44,848 bases of DNA. Source: an uncultured Lachnospiraceae bacterium. Its GTDB lineage: Bacteria; Bacillota; Clostridia; Lachnospirales; Lachnospiraceae. Location: the NCBI GenBank assembly GCA_947631665.1, contig CANRMF010000013.1:1-44848 (forward strand). Reading direction: 5' to 3'. The notes under the pieces were generated by a model. The model did not search any database. It worked only from the letters and a program-made list of their open reading frames with translations, and was not told where the DNA came from. Below, in pieces: positions 5,645-40,863 of the stretch (positions within the stretch are counted from its first letter, which is position 1; the number at the start of each line of letters is the position of its first letter). A program made the translations under genes and the position numbers.

Positions 5645-6436
5645 ATGAAGAAAAAGAAATCGACAGTGATTGGCTGTATAGTTTTTTTAATGATAATACT
5701 GCTGATTTGGCAGGGTATTTATATTTTGGGCGTAGACGTTCTGGCTATCTGGGAGCCTTATTCTTTTCCAAATCTGAAAGATATGGCACTCCGTTTTTGG
5801 GAGCTGGCTGCGGACGGAAGTCTTGCGACTGCGGTTATATCCAGTATCGGACGTGGCATTGCAGGATATCTGATTGCATGTGTTCTTGGAAGCCTGATTG
5901 GAATGTTGCTGCTTGAATATAACGCGCTGCAGAGATACTTAAAACCACTGCTTTCAGGAATTCAGACACTTCCGAGTATCTGCTGGGTTCCGTTTGCTAT
6001 TTTATGGTTCGGACTGGGAAACGACGCGATTATTTTTGTTGTCGTTATGGGCTCTATGTTAAGCATTGCACTATCTGTGGAAAGCGCAGTCCGAAATATT
6101 CACCCGCTATATCTGGCAGTTGCGAAAATTATGGGAGCAAAAGGTATTCGGCTGATTGTAAAAGTGATTATTCCGGCGGCAATGCCCGCGCTGATATCAG
6201 GATTTCGGCAGGGGTGGTCTTTTGCATGGAGAGCGCTGATGTCCGGAGAAGTTATCTCATCTTCCGTCGGACTGGGATATACGCTCATGATGGGAAGAAA
6301 TCTGGCAGATATCAATCAGGTGATGCTTGTCATGATTGTCATTATTATTATCGGCGTCGTCATGGATAAGTTATGTTTTTCTCTCATTGAAAACAAGGTA
6401 CTGCAAAGTCGGGGCTTGAAAACAGAAACAAAATAA
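5645..6436 (+). CDS. ssuC: ABC transporter permease, SsuC/TauC type
   Basis: This 263-residue integral membrane permease is the last gene of the sulfur operon. It has an N-terminal transmembrane segment and about five more, and carries the EAA-type cytoplasmic loop (AVAKIMGAKGIRLIVKVIIP) that docks on the ATPase. GGAGG at the end of ssuB serves as ribosome site, 3 bases separating the genes. The stop is followed by the 74-bp repeat array with no ordinary U-tract terminator. Confidence 0.9.
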   Translation: MKKKKSTVIGCIVFLMIILLIWQGIYILGVDVLAIWEPYSFPNLKDMALRFWELAADGSLATAVISSIGRGIAGYLIACVLGSLIGMLLLEYNALQRYLKPLLSGIQTLPSICWVPFAILWFGLGNDAIIFVVVMGSMLSIALSVESAVRNIHPLYLAVAKIMGAKGIRLIVKVIIPAAMPALISGFRQGWSFAWRALMSGEVISSSVGLGYTLMMGRNLADINQVMLVMIVIIIIGVVMDKLCFSLIENKVLQSRGLKTETK

Positions 6437-6481
6437 ACAGAAGCGAAAACATATACGCTGAGATTCGCCCCCTTTGGTCTG

Positions 6482-7290
6482 ATTACATATCAAATTTGTC
6501 TTTTCACAGGGATTTGCATGTAAAATAATGCCCGCCTTTCGCAAAATCCAAATCAAATTACATGCAAAATCCACCCTTTCGCAGGGATTTGCATGTAAAA
6601 TATTGCTGCTTTTTTTGAGGTTCGGATTTGATTACATGCCAAATCCACCCCTTTCACAGGGATTTGCATGTAAAATAATGCTGATTTTTTTGAGGTTCGG
6701 GTTTGATTACATGTCAAATCCATCTTTTTGCAGAAATTTGCATGTAAAATATGCTTGATTTTCGCAAATTTCGAGTTCAATTACATGTCAAATCCACCTT
6801 TTTGCAAGAAATTGCATGTAAAATATGCTTGCTTTCCGCAAAATTCAAATCAAATTACATGTCAAATCCACCTTTTGGCAGGAATTTGCATGTAAAATAT
6901 TCCTGCTTTCCACAAATTCCAAATCGAATTACATGTCAAATCTACCTTTTGGCAGGAAATTGCATGTAAAATGTTCCTGCCTTCCACAAATTTTGAGTTC
7001 AATTACATGTCAAATCCACCTTTTAGCAGAAATTTGCATGTAAAATACGCTTGCCTTCCGCAAAGTTCAAATCAAATTACATGCAAAATCCCCCTTTTCA
7101 CAAGAATTTGCATGTAAAATATTCCTGCTTTCCACAAATTCCAAATCGAATTACATGCAAAATCCACCCTTTTGCAAGAATTTGCATGTAAAATATTCCA
7201 ACTTTCCGCAAAATCCAAATTAAATTACATGTCAAATCCACCTTTTTGCAAAGATTTACATGTAATTACATTCCCGCTTTCCTTAGAGGA
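6482..7290. repeat. Tandem array of ~10.5 copies of a 74-bp unit with internal inverted repeat
   Basis: Units begin with ATTACAT at 6482, 6557, 6631, 6706, 6780, 6854, 6928, 7002, 7076, 7150 and 7224, so the period is 74 bp (75 twice); the last unit is partial. Each unit contains TTACATG(C/T)AAAT, an ~18-nt loop, then ATTTGCATGTAA, giving a 10-12 bp hairpin or a bipartite palindromic protein site. The ~30-nt linkers alternate in families with a three-unit period: units 4 and 7 end in GAGTTCA, 5 and 8 in TTCAAATCAA, 6 and 9 in TTCCAAATCGA, giving a 222-bp higher-order repeat. Reading frames across it on both strands are by-products of periodicity. No coding gene or U-tract terminator is seen here. 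Confidence 0.95.
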
Positions 7291-7353
7291 ACTTTGCCGA
7301 ATTTGAATTATGGCTTGCATGGCGAGTTGTATGTGTTTTTCTTGTGAATAGAG

Positions 7354-7382
7354 TTTCATTTCCTGCTTTTCTATGATAAAAT
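7354..7382 (+). promoter_or_regulatory. Probable sigma-A promoter of pth (extended -10)
   Basis: TATGATAAAAT provides TG-n-TAAAAT with the -10 at 7377-7382. A weak -35 (TTTCAT, 7354-7359) lies 17 bp upstream. It is the best promoter-like site between the repeat array and pth. Confidence 0.4.
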
Positions 7383-7419
7383 AGTCCCATTGAACAGGTT
7401 AGCGTAAAGAGGGAATGTG

Positions 7420-7974
7420 ATGTATGCAGTAATCGGTCTGGGCAATCCGGACAAGAAATATGAGAAGACAAGGCATAATGCAGGGTTTGATGTGATAGAC
7501 GAACTGGCAGAGCAGATGGGGATTTCGGTGAACACGAAAAGGCACAGGGCGTTGTGCGGAGTAGGCTCGGTCGGAAGCGAAAAAGTGATTTTAGTCAAGC
7601 CGCAGACGTATATGAATAATAGCGGGGAGGCTGCGCGCGCTGTCATGGATTTTTACAAATTGAATCCTGAAAAAGATTTGATTGTCATTTCCGACGACAT
7701 CGACCTGCCGACGGGGAAAATCCGGATTCGAGCAAAGGGAAGCGCGGGCGGACATAACGGATTAAAGAGTATTATCGCCCATACCGGAACGCAGAATTTT
7801 ACGCGCGTCAAAGTCGGTGTTGGGGCAAATGAGGGCGATTTGGTTAAACATGTGTTGGGAAAATTTGGTAAGGCTGAGAGAAAACTTGTTGACGATGCAG
7901 TGATTGATGCGGCGGGGGCTGTAAAGGTTATTATCACAGACAGCGTGGAAACGGCCATGAACAAGTATAATTAA
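7420..7974 (+). CDS. pth: Peptidyl-tRNA hydrolase
   Basis: This 184-residue cytoplasmic enzyme frees tRNA from peptidyl-tRNA that has dropped off ribosomes. It has MYAVIGLGNPDKKYEKTRHNAGFDVID at the N terminus with the catalytic His in RHNAGF, then KPQTYMNNSGEA, SDDIDLPTGKIRIRAKGSAGGHNGL and TQNFTRVKVGVG, all hallmarks of bacterial Pth. The ATG at 7420 is preferred over the in-frame GTG at 7417 because it sits 6 bases after AGAGGG. pth next to mfd is a common Firmicute arrangement. The C-terminal codons (VETAMNKYN and stop) are repeated several times downstream. Confidence 0.95.
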   Translation: MYAVIGLGNPDKKYEKTRHNAGFDVIDELAEQMGISVNTKRHRALCGVGSVGSEKVILVKPQTYMNNSGEAARAVMDFYKLNPEKDLIVISDDIDLPTGKIRIRAKGSAGGHNGLKSIIAHTGTQNFTRVKVGVGANEGDLVKHVLGKFGKAERKLVDDAVIDAAGAVKVIITDSVETAMNKYN

Positions 7975-8125
7975 GATTATTATCACAGACAGCGTGAAAA
8001 CAGCCACGAGCAAATATCATTAAGATCGTGGAAAAGACCACGAACAAGTATCCTTAAAGTCGTGAAAACAGCCACGAGCAAGTATCCTTAAAGTCGTGGA
8101 AACAGCCACGAACAAATATAATTGA
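7930..8125 (+). repeat. Tandem array of pth tail copies, each with its own stop codon
   Basis: The last 15 codons of pth including its stop (7930-7974) are copied at 7979-8023, encoding IITDSVKTATSKYH-stop. Three shorter copies follow with 34-bp spacing (CGTG at 7993, 8027, 8061, 8095), encoding VEKTTNKYP, VKTATSKYP and VETATNKYN, each ending in TAA or TGA. Each copy also contains a short hairpin of the form CGTGG-6 nt-CCACG. No gene is seen between 7975 and 8183. Confidence 0.92.
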
Positions 8126-13970: not shown

Positions 13971-14036
13971 TTAACTTTTTTTCACAAATCTGTAGCCACA
14001 TTTTAACTTTTTTTCACAAATCTGCAGCCGCATTTT
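13971..14036 (-). repeat. Two-copy repeat of the zinc-ribbon gene tail
   Basis: A ~34-base unit with 32-bp period occurs twice (from 13971 and from 14003). The copy at 14003-14036 encodes the end of the zinc-ribbon gene (minus strand, CGCRFVKKS-stop). The other copy, past the stop, would encode CGYRFVKKS-stop. Confidence 0.85.
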
Positions 14037-21986: not shown

Positions 21987-23408
21987 ATGTCAGAAAAAAC
22001 AATCTTTAATTTAAAAAATATCAGTATCTATTCGCTCGTGATGGACTTAATTCACAGGGCGTGGATTATTGTAATTGTAGTCTGTCTGGGAATTATGGGA
22101 GAGTATACTTTTCTGAAAAAAGATTACGTTCCGCAATATACCAGTTCTGCAATTTATGTGGTCACGCCAAGACAAAGCACCAATTATGTCTTTACGAACC
22201 GCAGGTTTGCCGAAAGCGTTATTTCCGTATTTCAAAACCTGATGAATACTGAAATTATGAATACCAGAATTAAGCAGGAGCTTCACAAGTCGGATTTGGG
22301 CGCGACAATGCTGGTCGATTTGATTGAGGGGACGAATTTGATGAAAATTACCGTCACTTCTGACGATCCGATTGAGGCGTTTAAGACCATTGGCATTATT
22401 ATGGAAAATTATAACGAATTATCCGAATACTTAAATTCGGACGCGGTTTTCGACGAGCTGAAAGCGCCTGTGGTCGCAACAATGCCAAGCAATTCGCTGA
22501 TGCCGCAGAATAAGTCTGTTATGATGGGGCTCGTCGCCGGACTGATTGCCGTTATTCTGATTGTCCTCTTTAGTATTTTCCGAAAGACGATAAAATCAGA
22601 AAGCGTCATTGAGGAGGAGCTGGACACAAATCTGCTGGGCACGATTCTGCATGAGAAAAAGAATAAGACGTTAAAGGCAAAAATAGCGCATCAGGTCAGG
22701 GCGCTGCTGATTACGAGTCCGATTATTTCCACGCAGTTTGTGGAGGCTGTCAACAATATCCGTATCAGAATGGAATATGAACACGAACGGCACCCAAACC
22801 GCAATGTCTATATGCTCTCAAGCGTCTGCGAAAACGAAGGAAAGTCCACAGTCGCGTTAAATGTGGCGCTGTCCTTTGCGAGAGAGGGCAAAAAAGTTAT
22901 TTTAATCGACGCCGATATGAGAAAACCGGCGATATATAAGATGCTGGATATTCCGAAATCCGAAGTAGTGGATCTGGTCAATCTGTTTGAGGGAAGATGC
23001 GGTCTGGACGAGGTGATGTATAACGACCACAGGACGGGGCTTCATCTGATTTTGTCCTCAAAGGGACATTCCAGTACCCACGCTTACATGAAGTCGGGGG
23101 CAATGCTGGATTTGATAAGCAAATGCAGAATGATGGCGGATTATGTGATTATTGACACTCCGCCGATGGCTTTGGTATCGGACGCGGAAGCGCTGTTAGA
23201 CAGAGTGGATTATTCCGTTCTGGTTGTCAGACAGGACTTCTCTTATCAGAAAGACGTCCAAAACAGTATCAATTTAATGAATGATTCCAATTCAAAAATG
23301 CTTGGCTGCGTTTTAAATGATTATAGGATTTTTCATATGAATATGAAAAAACAAATGAGATTGTTGTCAAATACAGAGGGAAAGGCGGTGGAAATTTATG
23401 AAGATTAA
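21987..23408 (+). CDS. Wzz-like chain-length regulator fused to BY-kinase (1)
   Basis: This 473-residue Wzc-like protein has two membrane helices (about residues 27-45 and 180-205) bracketing a Wzz-type extracellular part, then a cytoplasmic tyrosine-kinase domain. The kinase has Walker A ENEGKSTVALN, Walker A' VILIDADMRKP and Walker B VIIDTPP. The C terminus (KAVEIYED) has only a single Tyr and no tyrosine cluster. The family controls polysaccharide length and export. In many Firmicutes the membrane part and the kinase are separate proteins; here they are fused. Its 3' end overlaps the next gene by 11 bases. Confidence 0.9.
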   Translation: MSEKTIFNLKNISIYSLVMDLIHRAWIIVIVVCLGIMGEYTFLKKDYVPQYTSSAIYVVTPRQSTNYVFTNRRFAESVISVFQNLMNTEIMNTRIKQELHKSDLGATMLVDLIEGTNLMKITVTSDDPIEAFKTIGIIMENYNELSEYLNSDAVFDELKAPVVATMPSNSLMPQNKSVMMGLVAGLIAVILIVLFSIFRKTIKSESVIEEELDTNLLGTILHEKKNKTLKAKIAHQVRALLITSPIISTQFVEAVNNIRIRMEYEHERHPNRNVYMLSSVCENEGKSTVALNVALSFAREGKKVILIDADMRKPAIYKMLDIPKSEVVDLVNLFEGRCGLDEVMYNDHRTGLHLILSSKGHSSTHAYMKSGAMLDLISKCRMMADYVIIDTPPMALVSDAEALLDRVDYSVLVVRQDFSYQKDVQNSINLMNDSNSKMLGCVLNDYRIFHMNMKKQMRLLSNTEGKAVEIYED

Positions 23409-25113
23409 CGGTGTTAATGAAATCGCCAATTCCGTAGAACCGGAGGAAAAGAGCCTCGCCGAAATTATATCGAGTTTCTTGAACGGATTCCGCAAACTCT
23501 GGTGGGTGGCTGTCATTCTTGCCGTAATCGGAGGCTTCACAGGCTATTTAAAATACAAAAACAATTACGTTGCGATGTATGAGTCTAAGGCAACGTTTTC
23601 CATTACAGCCGCCGAATACAACGGGCAGAATGATGAGTCCTATACAAATAACAGCCAGTTGGCGTCTGCATTAAGCGTCAGTTTCAATTATCTGATCAAT
23701 AATGAAGTCTTTTACGAGATTATTGAAAAAGATATCGGACTTGACTATATGCCGAGTACGCTGGACATTTCTGTGGTGGAGGAAACGAATATTTTAAGTA
23801 TTGTTTCTACCGGAAAAGATGCGGAGCTCAACTATAAGGTCATTGAATCGGTTATCAACAATTACTCCAGCGTTGTGGAATTTGTGCTTGGAGATACGGA
23901 GATAACCATTCTGGAGGAGCCTACCCTTTCAGGGACTCCAATCAATCCTTACGCGCCGTTAAGCACAGTCCTTTTGTACGGGCTGATTGGTCTGGTAGCA
24001 GGATTGATTCCGAGTATTCTTTACGCAATTTTCGTAAAGACGATAAAATCCAAAGAGGACGTTGAAAAATATCTGAGTATTCCATGCTTCGGCACGCTGC
24101 CGGTCGCAAATCTCGGAAAAAAGGACAAGGTCTGCTCCATTATCAACAAAAACGTAGGCTTCCGGTATCTGGAGGCAGTCCGCGTGAGCGTTTCAAGATG
24201 CGAGCGGGTATTAAAGCAGAAAAATTATAAAGTGATTTTAATTACGAGTACAAAAGAAGGGGAAGGAAAGAGTACCTTTGCCATGAATCTGGCGTACTCT
24301 CTGTCCAAGTCCCAAAGCCGCGTAATGCTGATTGAAGGGGACTTGAGAAACCCGTCGCTGCGCGCGATGACGGGGGCGGAGATGCCGGATTATTCTATGG
24401 AGCAGTTTTTGGAAAAAGAGGTTAAAAACAGCGAAGCAATTGCCAACCTTCCGGGTACGAGAGTACTTCTGCTTGCGCCGAACATACCGTCCAAAAATTC
24501 GATTAAGTGCCTGAACTCCCACGCGATGGAGCATTTTATTGAAGACGCAAAAGAAGTGGTGGATTACATTGTCATTGACGCTCCGCATTGCGGCGATATT
24601 TCAGACGCGGCGGTGCTGGCGAAATACAGCGACGGAATTATCTATGTTGTCAGGGAAGACGATGCGCATGTGCACAAAATTCTGAACACAATTCAGGAAT
24701 TTTCTTATACCCGTATTCCGATGATCGGCTGCATTTTAAACGGCTCTATCGGCAAGCTGCGGATTTCATACGGTTATGGATACAGCTACGGCTATGGTTA
24801 CGGCAGACATTACGGCTACGGCAGGTATGGCTACGGACGTTACGGTTACGGTCGGTACGGCTATGGCAGATACGGTTATGGCGGGTATGGTTACGGCAAT
24901 TACGGATACAGTGAATCCGGCGAAGTTTCCGATGAAGAATTCAGCGTAAAGGAAAAGAAGGTATCCAAAAAGATTGCGATGACGACGACGGAAGATGAAA
25001 AGAGAGCATTGGAGCGGGAAAAGGCGCAAAAGAGAGAAGAAGAAGAATTGAAAAAGCAGCAGGAAGCCGCAAAAAAGACTTCTTCCAAAAAAAGCAAAAA
25101 TGAAAAGAAATAA
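23398..25113 (+). CDS. Wzz-like chain-length regulator fused to BY-kinase (2) with Tyr-Gly-rich tail
   Basis: This 571-residue paralogous Wzc-like protein has two membrane helices (about 36-52 and 196-216) and a kinase domain with Walker A TKEGEGKSTFAMN, Walker A' VMLIEGDLRNP (Glu where the usual motif has Asp) and Walker B IVIDAPH. From about residue 457 to 506 it carries about 20 tyrosines in YGYGR-like repeats coded by a 15-bp minisatellite, the likely autophosphorylation cluster. A highly charged Lys/Glu tail ends the protein. No dedicated phosphatase (CpsB/Wzb) is in the window. The start lies within the previous gene and the stop overlaps the VanZ-like gene. Confidence 0.9.
   Translation: MKINGVNEIANSVEPEEKSLAEIISSFLNGFRKLWWVAVILAVIGGFTGYLKYKNNYVAMYESKATFSITAAEYNGQNDESYTNNSQLASALSVSFNYLINNEVFYEIIEKDIGLDYMPSTLDISVVEETNILSIVSTGKDAELNYKVIESVINNYSSVVEFVLGDTEITILEEPTLSGTPINPYAPLSTVLLYGLIGLVAGLIPSILYAIFVKTIKSKEDVEKYLSIPCFGTLPVANLGKKDKVCSIINKNVGFRYLEAVRVSVSRCERVLKQKNYKVILITSTKEGEGKSTFAMNLAYSLSKSQSRVMLIEGDLRNPSLRAMTGAEMPDYSMEQFLEKEVKNSEAIANLPGTRVLLLAPNIPSKNSIKCLNSHAMEHFIEDAKEVVDYIVIDAPHCGDISDAAVLAKYSDGIIYVVREDDAHVHKILNTIQEFSYTRIPMIGCILNGSIGKLRISYGYGYSYGYGYGRHYGYGRYGYGRYGYGRYGYGRYGYGGYGYGNYGYSESGEVSDEEFSVKEKKVSKKIAMTTTEDEKRALEREKAQKREEEELKKQQEAAKKTSSKKSKNEKK
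24769..24916 (+). repeat. In-gene 15-bp minisatellite encoding YGYGR repeats
   Basis: Degenerate TA(C/T)GG-rich repeats encode SYGYGY and then YGYGR several times in a row within the kinase tail. Copies differ mostly at third codon positions, so protein-level selection is likely even though slippage could change copy number. Confidence 0.85.
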
Positions 25114-38600: not shown

Positions 38601-38651
38601 AAAAAGCAGAGCGTTTATACGAATTGAATTTCGTACAGACGCTCTGTTTTT
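38601..38651. terminator. Bidirectional intrinsic terminator between hsp20 and purH
   Basis: CAGAGCGT and ACGCTCTG form the outer stem; TACGAA and TTCGTA extend it past a 3x3 internal loop. A T-run follows on the plus strand and an A-run precedes it (a T-run on the minus strand), so it can serve both convergent genes. Confidence 0.88.
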
Positions 38652-38728
38652 ATTACGAATTGAATTTCATACAGACATTCTGTTTTTATTACAAATTGAA
38701 TTTCGCACAGATGATCTGCTTTTTATTA
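38619..38728. repeat. Three tandem copies of a 36-bp terminator-like unit
   Basis: Units begin ACGAATTGAATTTC or ACAAATTGAATTTC at 38619, 38655 and 38691. Each contains ACAGA-3 nt-TCTG(T/C) followed by TTTTTATT, a mini-terminator. The first is part of the bidirectional terminator. Confidence 0.92.
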
Positions 38729-39919: not shown

Positions 39920-39954
39920 AATCAATCTCCTTTTTTCAAATTTTCAAAATATTT

Positions 39955-40042
39955 CTATTGGTTTTTGTTGACAATGCGTGTTTCATACGCGCCGGTTTCT
40001 ATTGATTTTTGTTGACAATGCGTGTTTCATATGTCCCGGTTT
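39955..40042 (-). repeat. Two-copy repeat of the purO tail
   Basis: A 44-bp unit occurs from 39999 (inside the gene, encoding TGTYETRIVNKNQ-stop on the minus strand) and again from 39955 (past the stop, encoding TGAYETRIVNKNQ-stop). The copies differ at only a few bases. Confidence 0.93.
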
Positions 40043-40712
40043 CGATGTCAATGTAGCGCACGAACAGGGAAACTTTATTGTCTTCGTTTAAACTGCTCCA
40101 GACGGAACTGGTAAATTCGTCAATGTCGTCCGGTACGGAAACAAACTTCGGCTCGCCCTCAAAACTTGGCAGTGGATTTCCGTCGCGCATATAAGTGTGA
40201 ATAAAATGCGCCTCGCCGTTTACCGGATTGTCATAGGAAAACGTGTAACGGTTGCAGCACGCAGGGTTTCCATTGCTGCTCTTTAAAATGGACATCTCGT
40301 AACTGTATGCGCCGTCCTTTACGTGCATGATACCGGAAATACGCGGCGTATAGTTTGGAGCGTCCGGCTCAAACGCGCGGGTTCTGAGCGCCTGCTCAAA
40401 AGTCTTGCCGTCATTCATGAGCTCATAAACAGTATCGGTCTGGTCGCCGTTGGTCACAATGGTGTCGTCGTTCAGGACGCGGACGGGAGCGTAGATAATC
40501 AGGCTCGGATCAGTCAGTTTTGACGGGTCGAACGCCTCTGTGCGGATTCCCTCTCCATCTGTGACAAAAATACGGTTTCTGCTGTTTTCGCTTCTGCCCA
40601 TAATGAAATAAGCGGTGACGGCATATTTTCCGTTCGGGGATTTCCCAATGACAATTCCCCGTCCCGGATATGAATTTTCTTTCAGTTCATGTTCGAGTGA
40701 TAACGTCTGCAT
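39999..40712 (-). CDS. purO: IMP cyclohydrolase, PurO family
   Basis: This 237-residue enzyme closes the ring of FAICAR to give IMP, the last step of purine synthesis. It matches the PurO-type IMP cyclohydrolase fold first known from archaea: YPGRGIVIGKSPNGKYAVTAYFIMGRSENSRNRIF, DPSLIIYAPVR, TNGDQTDT and RISG. The ATG at 40712 with GGAGGAAAAATTT upstream is preferred to the longer frame that runs into the riboswitch. It is the first gene of the two-gene operon with the AICAR formyltransferase; together they replace bifunctional PurH. Confidence 0.92.
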   Translation of the reverse strand: MQTLSLEHELKENSYPGRGIVIGKSPNGKYAVTAYFIMGRSENSRNRIFVTDGEGIRTEAFDPSKLTDPSLIIYAPVRVLNDDTIVTNGDQTDTVYELMNDGKTFEQALRTRAFEPDAPNYTPRISGIMHVKDGAYSYEMSILKSSNGNPACCNRYTFSYDNPVNGEAHFIHTYMRDGNPLPSFEGEPKFVSVPDDIDEFTSSVWSSLNEDNKVSLFVRYIDIETGTYETRIVNKNQ

Positions 40713-40741: not shown

Positions 40742-40779
40742 AAAAAAACGTCCGGAAAGCCCTTTCGGCTGCCCAGACG
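40742..40779 (-). terminator. Riboswitch expression-platform terminator
   Basis: On the minus strand CGTCTGG and CCGGACG pair (one G-U), with AGCC-GAAA-GGCT stacked inside, followed by seven T. It shares CGTCTGGGC with the 3' domain of the aptamer, so the two structures exclude each other. Confidence 0.9.
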
Positions 40780-40842
40780 GTCGACATACATTACTTCGTG
40801 CTCCCCTGTGGTTTGTCCACGAATCCGCCAGTCGCACGAAAC
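40771..40842 (-). ncRNA. ZTP (pfl) riboswitch aptamer
   Basis: The minus-strand RNA has stem TTCGTGC/GCACGAA closing GACTGGCG, then GTGG-ACAAA-CCAC and AGGGGAG, and a 3' domain CGACCGTCTGGGC. These are the conserved parts of the ZTP riboswitch, which binds ZMP/ZTP, the intermediate that builds up when 10-formyl-THF is short. Binding should stop the terminator from forming and switch on purO-purH. Confidence 0.88.
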
Positions 40843-40863
40843 TATCTTTAGGATAAACGATTT

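Follow-up and report, generated by a model that had tools for sequence, protein, structure and literature searches.

A helically phased family of 74-bp tandem arrays with paired TTACAYR marks as candidate protein-docking DNA in a lachnospiraceal genus

The array described here occupies the gap between the genes for an ABC-transporter membrane component and peptidyl-tRNA hydrolase in the window, by which we mean the whole 44,848-nucleotide stretch that was analyzed. It is probably one copy of a dispersed family of DNA-level sites at which a protein docks or around which DNA is wrapped, a reading broad enough to include gyrase as the protein. We favor it because the marks and their spacing are constant, the same helical register is found in two genomes, the DNA is predicted to be curved, and arrays have been maintained at orthologous places.

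TRF reported the window array at 6482-7265 with a period of 74, 10.6 copies, and 80% matches; its units and neighbors are given in Table 1. Left-arm spacings read directly from the sequence were 75, 74, 75, 74, 74, 74, 74, 74, 74, and 74 bp. The first-pass annotation of this DNA had placed about 10.5 units at exactly 74-bp spacing in 6482..7290. The array is indeed there, but it comprises 11 units, ends at 7265, and has 74-bp steps in 8 of 10 cases and 75-bp steps in the other 2. An inverted repeat had been claimed for each unit and is present in all 11 modules, 10 of them with exact 7-bp arms and 1 with one mismatch. The arms are better kept than the linkers, as had been noticed at the outset, and they are also better kept between species.

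Table 1. The window array, its modules, and the two adjoining genes (window coordinates)
Feature	Position	Strand	Remarks
74-bp array	6483..7265	.	11 modules TTACAYR-N27/28-YRTGTAA of 41-42 bp, plus 10 linkers of 33-34 bp
Module 1	6483..6523	.	Left arm TTACATA
Module 2	6558..6598	.	
Module 3	6632..6673	.	Inner gap 28 bp
Module 4	6707..6747	.	
Module 5	6781..6821	.	
Module 6	6855..6895	.	
Module 7	6929..6969	.	
Module 8	7003..7043	.	Its unit 91% identical to unit 5
Module 9	7077..7117	.	Its unit 92% identical to unit 6
Module 10	7151..7191	.	
Module 11	7225..7265	.	
ABC transporter inner-membrane component (Pfam BPD_transp_1)	5645..6436	+	Upstream of array; context only
Peptidyl-tRNA hydrolase, pth (Pfam Pept_tRNA_hydro)	7417..7974	+	Downstream of array; context only

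The annotation further held that linkers recur every third unit and that the array grew by copying 222-bp blocks. TRF also reported a 222-bp period (2.5 copies) at 6706-7265, and unit pairs 5 and 8 and 6 and 9 are among the best matched (Table 1). However, units 4 and 7 are only 82% identical, whereas the adjacent units 2 and 3 reach 92%, and mean identity among units 4-10 was 85.1% at lag 3, 84.2% at lag 1, and 84.7% at lag 4. These similarities fit one block copy and not a strict higher-order period of three.

A series of intrinsic terminators would carry a GC-rich stem and a T-run in every unit. The terminator scan gave 2 matches versus a shuffle mean of 0.9, a weak one within the window array (6699-6721) and another past its end (7309-7331), and no T-run lies directly 3′ of each dyad. 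The array is thus not a terminator series, as first stated, although the accompanying remark that it has no U-tracts needs correction: a run of seven T occurs in the linker of units 2 and 3, well beyond the arm. CRISPR arrays combine near-identical repeats with unique spacers; here the fill is similar from unit to unit within an array, which does not fit that pattern.

Judged by the pth protein, the nearest named records come from metagenome assemblies of Eubacterium sp.; the isolate names hint at the rumen. Other repeats were noted in the window. One, at 7924-8123 (TRF rows of 49, 34, and 68 bp), runs across the 3′ end of pth and on into the gap between pth and mfd, and it resembles copies of the last pth codons. 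Short tandem repeats at 13971-14036, 38614-38728, and 39952-40043 (32, 36, and 44 bp) have TRF consensuses without a TTACAYR arm, and a 15/30/45-bp repeat at 24789-24909 falls within ORF 23398-25113. The window also holds a ZMP/ZTP riboswitch at 40764-40845 on the minus strand (Rfam RF01750, 67.2 bits).

The same genome (G000; 2.0 Mb in 74 contigs, 94% complete) carries 88 exact TTACATG-N22..32-CATGTAA modules, compared with 0 for the reversed control, and 93 modules when N27 is required and one mismatch is allowed. The modules form at least 16 arrays that each have two units or more, built on a single plan of TTACAYR-N27-YRTGTAA followed by a linker of 33-34 bp. Among the 103 units of 16 arrays, a set that includes a two-unit remnant and leaves out locus L248, the inner gap was 27 bp in 92, 26 bp in nine, and 25 and 28 bp in one each; linkers were 33 bp in 74 of 87 cases and 34 bp in 13. 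This geometry recurs across six genomes. Units are alike within an array, and between arrays the sequence outside the arms and the flanking A/T zone differs. Arrays probably grow and shrink by copying of whole units, which would preserve a register of seven helical turns. The first-pass annotation had named, as an outcome against its own reading, the unit turning up at random loci as a decaying simple repeat; the unit does lie at many loci, but its arms and geometry are found there without decay. A separate 74-bp tandem duplication at L150:7180-7317, located some 1 kb ahead of the second array there, has a consensus without a TTACAYR arm and is possibly a coincidence.

When A/T content was folded at 74 bp, the seventh harmonic (10.57 bp) dominated, corresponding to seven turns per unit. 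Its power in G000 was 55.3 (15 arrays, 67 units) against a null mean of 1.2, the next largest harmonic being 9.1. The corresponding values were 51.3, 1.1, and 3.4 in the related genome G011 (12 arrays, 60 units), and 10.7 against 0.24 in G022 (30 arrays, 97 units), where the sixth harmonic reached 5.2. The null permutes fill columns within each array and keeps the arms fixed, and some other harmonics exceed it too; the test takes arrays with 74-bp units, so that 75-bp arrays such as L135 are left out. Measured on the fill alone, phase agreement (R) was 0.96 in G000, 0.97 in G011, and 0.92 in G022, with mean phases of 37, 33, and 49 degrees; the arms, like an A/T maximum centered on the dyad axis, have a phase of 38.9 degrees. 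Single arrays reached a P value of <0.05 on fill alone in 13 of 15 cases in G000 and 10 of 12 in G011 (23 of 27 together), but a single array out of 30 did so in G022 and none out of 4 in G013. Phase slopes for linkers were 0.17 in G000 and 0.20 in G011 versus 0.28 and 0.23 for the inner fill, and the linker phase is nearly lost in G022. This dyad-centered A/T phase of the array units is new here. It is right but weak in G022, and the four G013 arrays show neither phase nor curvature. The phase statistics treat as independent arrays that share ancestry. Fill identity between clusters of the G000 arrays was 44.9% (best of two orientations) versus 35.9%, the value expected of fill that conserves nothing beyond the A/T-or-G/C class, and the residual identity points to a trace of common descent or to a further base constraint. 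The phase statistics are therefore not fully independent, and part of the phase pattern may be inherited.

A wedge model, run with assumed wedge values, predicted a curvature of 86.7 degrees per 74 bp in G000, where 16 of 16 arrays exceeded their own shuffles (33.8 degrees), and 88.8 degrees in G011, where 11 of 12 did so (35.7 degrees). Predicted values were 55.4 degrees in G022 (28 arrays), 49.6 in G012 (3 arrays), 56.8 in G002 (1 array), and 30.4 in G013 (4 arrays); for comparison, shuffled fill gave 34 to 39 degrees and neighboring DNA 30 to 33 degrees. Seventy-four base pairs make 7.00 turns at 10.57 bp, and successive CAYR steps are 31 and 43 bp apart, that is, 2.93 and 4.07 turns, so that the marks face one side of the DNA. 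The constant arms, the constant geometry, and the phased A/T blocks lend backing to the proposal, made at first sight of the array, that it is a clustered site for a DNA-binding or chromosome-organizing protein.

Arrays were found in 6 of 23 genomes of the genus, G000 included; the remaining 17 had none, and the controls gave 0. Forward matches numbered 185 in G022, 109 in G011, 91 in G000, 21 in G002, 14 in G013, and 13 in G012. A looser pattern, applied to 154 genomes, gave 189, 111, 91, 22, 16, and 25 matches in the same genomes and one match in each of three of the other 17 members of the genus. Among the 131 genomes outside the genus, 27 had matches to the looser pattern, with a maximum of 3 per genome and no array among the matches listed; their total, counted from the tabulated matches, was 34 versus 24 for the reversed control. 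In a tree of 19 Mfd proteins, the array genomes fell into two clades, G000 with G011 and G013 with G012, G002, and G022, and array-free lineages lay between them. The tree leaves out 4 of the 23 genomes, all array-free, in which the Mfd match was partial, split, interrupted, or missing.

The clades differ in their arms. TTACATG accounts for 93% of arms in G000 and 78% in G011, and TTACATA for 96% in G022 and 100% in G013; arms are mixed in G002 (3 units) and G012 (11 units). A third type, TTACACG/CGTGTAA, occurs in G012 arrays (C36, C106, and C2) and keeps the TTACAYR pattern. DNA of the whole array used as a probe found matches in just 2 of 40 genomes (G000 and G011) because the fill diverges, and arm patterns were therefore needed. 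No module with TTACATG arms was found in viral contigs, and with TTACATR arms five contigs had one match each, with no second module in the stretch examined. Eighty loci of pth relatives yielded seven isolated two-mismatch sites and no array. The pth locus of G011 was considered as an empty site: no array lies in the ~800 bp upstream of pth, but the adjoining gene differs from that in G000, and because another gene thus adjoins pth upstream, the site is not a clean empty one.

Among the matches listed, six G000 arrays share their adjoining gene or genes with an array in G011, and the two arrays differ in unit number (7/8, 8/6, 4/8, 6/9, 8/7, and 4/6). Both sides match in three of these pairs, and in the others the G011 contigs end; L248 and L249 form a seventh pair. 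Three array places, again among the matches listed, are common to G022, of the other clade, and the G000/G011 clade. In a comparison of 15 G022 loci, L236 matched L135/L149 on both sides and L238 matched L146/L155 on one side; L262 matched L248/L249 on both sides. The clade difference in arms is clean at L236 versus L135/L149, and L155, L248, and L249 have mixed arms. In the six G000/G011 pairs, the consensus arms differed at 3 of 84 positions and the inner fill at 25 of 162 (P = 0.005). The comparison is confined to arms and inner fill because 75-bp units in two pairs disturb the linker figures and because some consensuses draw on few 74-bp units (1 for L135). No difference fell among the 72 positions that make up the outer six bases of the arms (P = 0.0001). 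By this sequence comparison, the arrays at orthologous places are old and maintained.

Fifty arrays are flanked on each side by a gene of 100 codons or more. Three of these 50 lay in divergent gaps; among the 78 remaining gaps of those loci, 17 were divergent (P = 0.023). Genome by genome, the counts were 2 of 16 versus 6 of 38 in G000 (no difference), 0 of 8 versus 3 of 15 in G011, and 1 of 26 versus 8 of 25 in G022, so the avoidance is mainly that of G022. A terminator-like hairpin reading toward the array was present within ~160 bp on at least one side of 8 of 16 arrays in G000 and 5 of 12 in G011, versus 11 to 12% of random stretches, which are mostly coding and make a generous contrast; by the same flank test, the window array has no such hairpin. 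Placement at gene ends is likely for the G022 arrays and only suggested for those of G000. Pfam searches with 30 flanking proteins (from 15 G000 and 2 G011 loci) returned unrelated functions, with 2 of the 30 lacking a family. LexA adjoins one array, and no candidate array-binding protein was recognized among the flank proteins.

In the second clade, arrays keep company with elements that have ends. Nine of 11 loci examined in G013 contain a short array inside a dispersed element whose ends are inverted and which holds nested palindromes. The element at L193:1491-2618 and its relatives at L191, L194, L195, and L199 are 1.05 to 1.19 kb long; their inverted ends contain AAATTYCGGTTTGT, and two large nested palindromes surround the short array. 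Many G022 arrays follow a common left end, a small stem-loop and then a strong hairpin with a T-run; in some copies a matching right end, in inverted orientation, is present as well. A search with this left end gave 64 matches in G022, with an array in all 19 loci examined there, and one array locus each in G000 and G011, which are orthologous. It also matched loci in G002 with a single exact module and one G012 locus with no module in the stretch examined, and there were weak, array-free matches in G020, G007, G006, and G009. Many G022 arrays (L233-L235, L239, L241-L246, and others) share a first unit, TTACATATATTAGT...TAGATATGTAATATAT, that resembles a unit in the G013 element. Inspected by eye, the 15 other G000 arrays had no common flank ends, and the flanks at the G013 and G022 ends had no consistent target duplication; TA at the G013 ends is possible. 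In the second clade at least, copying in the manner of an element appears to have spread the family, and most G000 arrays are without such ends.

These elements bring up a selfish reading, in which the array is a nonautonomous, MITE-like repeat whose arms are sites for a transposase supplied from elsewhere and which persists by transposition. The G013 element (~1.1 kb in its fullest copies), the G022 left end with its occasional inverted right end, the single occurrence of that left end at an orthologous array in G000 and G011, and the patchy distribution on the genus tree all speak for it. We nevertheless judge it unlikely. The G022 left end matches one place only in G000, and the seven orthologous pairs and three cross-clade places imply old copies in which arms are kept while fill diverges, whereas a dead copy should lose both alike. 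Transposition also does not predict a dyad-centered helical phase. Far less probable still is a neutral minisatellite spread by chance: unit numbers do differ between orthologous arrays, as in any VNTR, but the arms, spacing, and helical phase are constant over unlinked loci and species. Least probable of all, to the point of being nearly dismissed, is the first-pass annotation's other suggestion, that hairpin RNAs are processed from a transcript of the array. The 41-bp module could fold as a 7-bp stem, the tandem layout resembles that of processed arrays, and in G000 and G011 taken together positions 8 and 14 pair above shuffled expectation (0.75 versus 0.53 and 0.63 versus 0.45). Most inner positions, however, pair no more than shuffled ones (positions 11 to 13 less or equally) in these genomes, and position 7 carries the same base in both arms in 14 of 16 G000 arrays (14.1 expected) and 8 of 12 G011 arrays (8.7 expected). 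Agreement at position 7 over six genomes (62 of 71, with 36.5 expected) is due to the clade difference; within species the arms are uncoupled, which disfavors an RNA stem. At gathering thresholds, no Rfam family matched the window array, L244, L248, or L193, the riboswitch elsewhere in the window excepted. Terminators that read toward the array stand beside 13 of 28 arrays, and 6300-7500 holds 1 promoter-like site versus a shuffle mean of 4.4 (standard deviation, 2.5).

The arms were also compared with the usual forms of the CopY/BlaI, DnaA, and other boxes. The portions of the open-access literature available to us named no bacterial protein that binds TTACATGTAA and contained no description of such arrays. 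Gyrase, or a topoisomerase more generally, is a special case of the docking reading, in which a wrapping type II topoisomerase would read the phased pattern and the arrays would absorb transcription-driven supercoils, as has been proposed for BIME-2 in E. coli; as an explanation by itself we think it improbable, about on a par with the MITE-like repeat. Arrays occur in 6 of 23 genomes of the genus, whereas gyrase is, to our knowledge, universal, and this patchiness together with the near-invariant arms indicates that gyrase alone is insufficient. The E. coli gyrase motif is described as symmetric and 130 bp long, with a 36-bp center and 47-bp flanks in which G/C content has a period of 10.75 bp; cleavage sites are reported to be enriched downstream of highly transcribed operons and to occur in BIME-2 (PMC6379681). 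The array period of 10.57 bp is near that of the motif, as is the 41+33+41-bp arrangement of module, linker, and module to 47+36+47. Like strong gyrase sites, with their symmetric A/T-G/C helical phasing over >100 bp (PMC6379681), the arrays have symmetric, dyad-centered phasing in G000 and G011 (weak in G022 and unseen in four G013 arrays). The E. coli motif is degenerate, however, and the arrays differ from it in their near-invariant arms, in their tandem repetition, and in a phase that in G000 and G011 runs, somewhat weakened, through the linkers, unlike the motif center, which is unphased and holds the cleavage site. The attraction of gyrase downstream of operons is, moreover, described as not hard-wired in sequence (PMC6379681).

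Several known systems resemble the arrays. In the sopC centromere of the F plasmid, a partition protein binds an inverted repeat carried by tandemly repeated units, but sopC is one plasmid locus, compared with at least 16 chromosomal loci here. MITEs are short, dispersed, noncoding elements. So are REPINs (PMC3116915), and some array copies likewise have inverted ends; most G000 arrays, however, have no element ends, and several arrays keep their place between species. Phased A-tract DNA, curved DNA in prokaryotic nucleoids with A/T blocks at 10 to 11 bp and intrinsic bends, has been proposed as a partner of bridging nucleoid proteins (PMC3940949). Here, in contrast, the blocks are packed into discrete repeat arrays that bear a recognition mark, and the loci are limited in number. 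E. coli BIME-2, like the arrays, is dispersed and extragenic, with regularly spaced, alternating sites and tandem growth (PMC2817692). The initial assertion that no described system has such a layout was accordingly too strong, BIMEs being regularly spaced REPs in alternating orientation. Protein binding has been reported for IHF to BIME-1, gyrase to BIME-2, and Pol I to REPs (PMC2817692). A REP unit is a 20- to 40-bp palindrome with a GTAG- or CGTC-type end tag (PMC3733652, PMC2817692). The arrays share with REPs and BIMEs the regularly spaced, alternating, extragenic sites, but their arms, TTACAYR sites of 7 to 12 bp, have neither an end tag of this kind nor a hairpin within them. The mark is thus 7 to 10 bp and A/T-rich, not a 20- to 40-bp REP hairpin, and the period is fixed at seven helical turns. 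By analogy, the array may work like BIME-2, yet it lies outside the REP definition and adds a seven-turn register and strong predicted curvature.

The docking reading can be put in terms of a mechanism. Each 74-bp unit presents two oppositely oriented TTACAYR marks, and in G000 and G011 these share a single helical register with the A/T blocks along the whole array. A sequence-specific protein, either nucleoid associated or a topoisomerase complex with a specificity partner, would bind the marks, and the curved DNA would wrap or coil around it, the product being a stiff nucleoprotein block that spans a few hundred base pairs. Such a block would act on supercoiling, read-through, or local chromosome folding and not as a single-gene operator; copying of whole units would let arrays grow or shrink while the register holds. 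A more specific version, which we put forward tentatively and as the weaker claim, is that a lineage-specific protein binds the TTACAYR marks on one face of the DNA and that the seven-turn repeat is wrapped in a nucleosome- or coil-like manner, so that each genome would have from 16 to at least 30 loci occupied by fixed architectural blocks. The difference between TTACATG and TTACATA clades would then record coevolution with this protein, and array-free lineages would have lost it.

What helically phased A/T blocks do in the genomes of bacteria has been described as not clear (PMC3940949). Phased A/T is usually studied as a faint genome-wide signal, and here it is concentrated in discrete arrays that carry a recognition mark. 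Copy-number variants, orthologous pairs, and array-free sister species make the link between curvature, a protein, and supercoiling or chromosome folding directly testable in this family, and a pull-down could reveal a new nucleoid protein.
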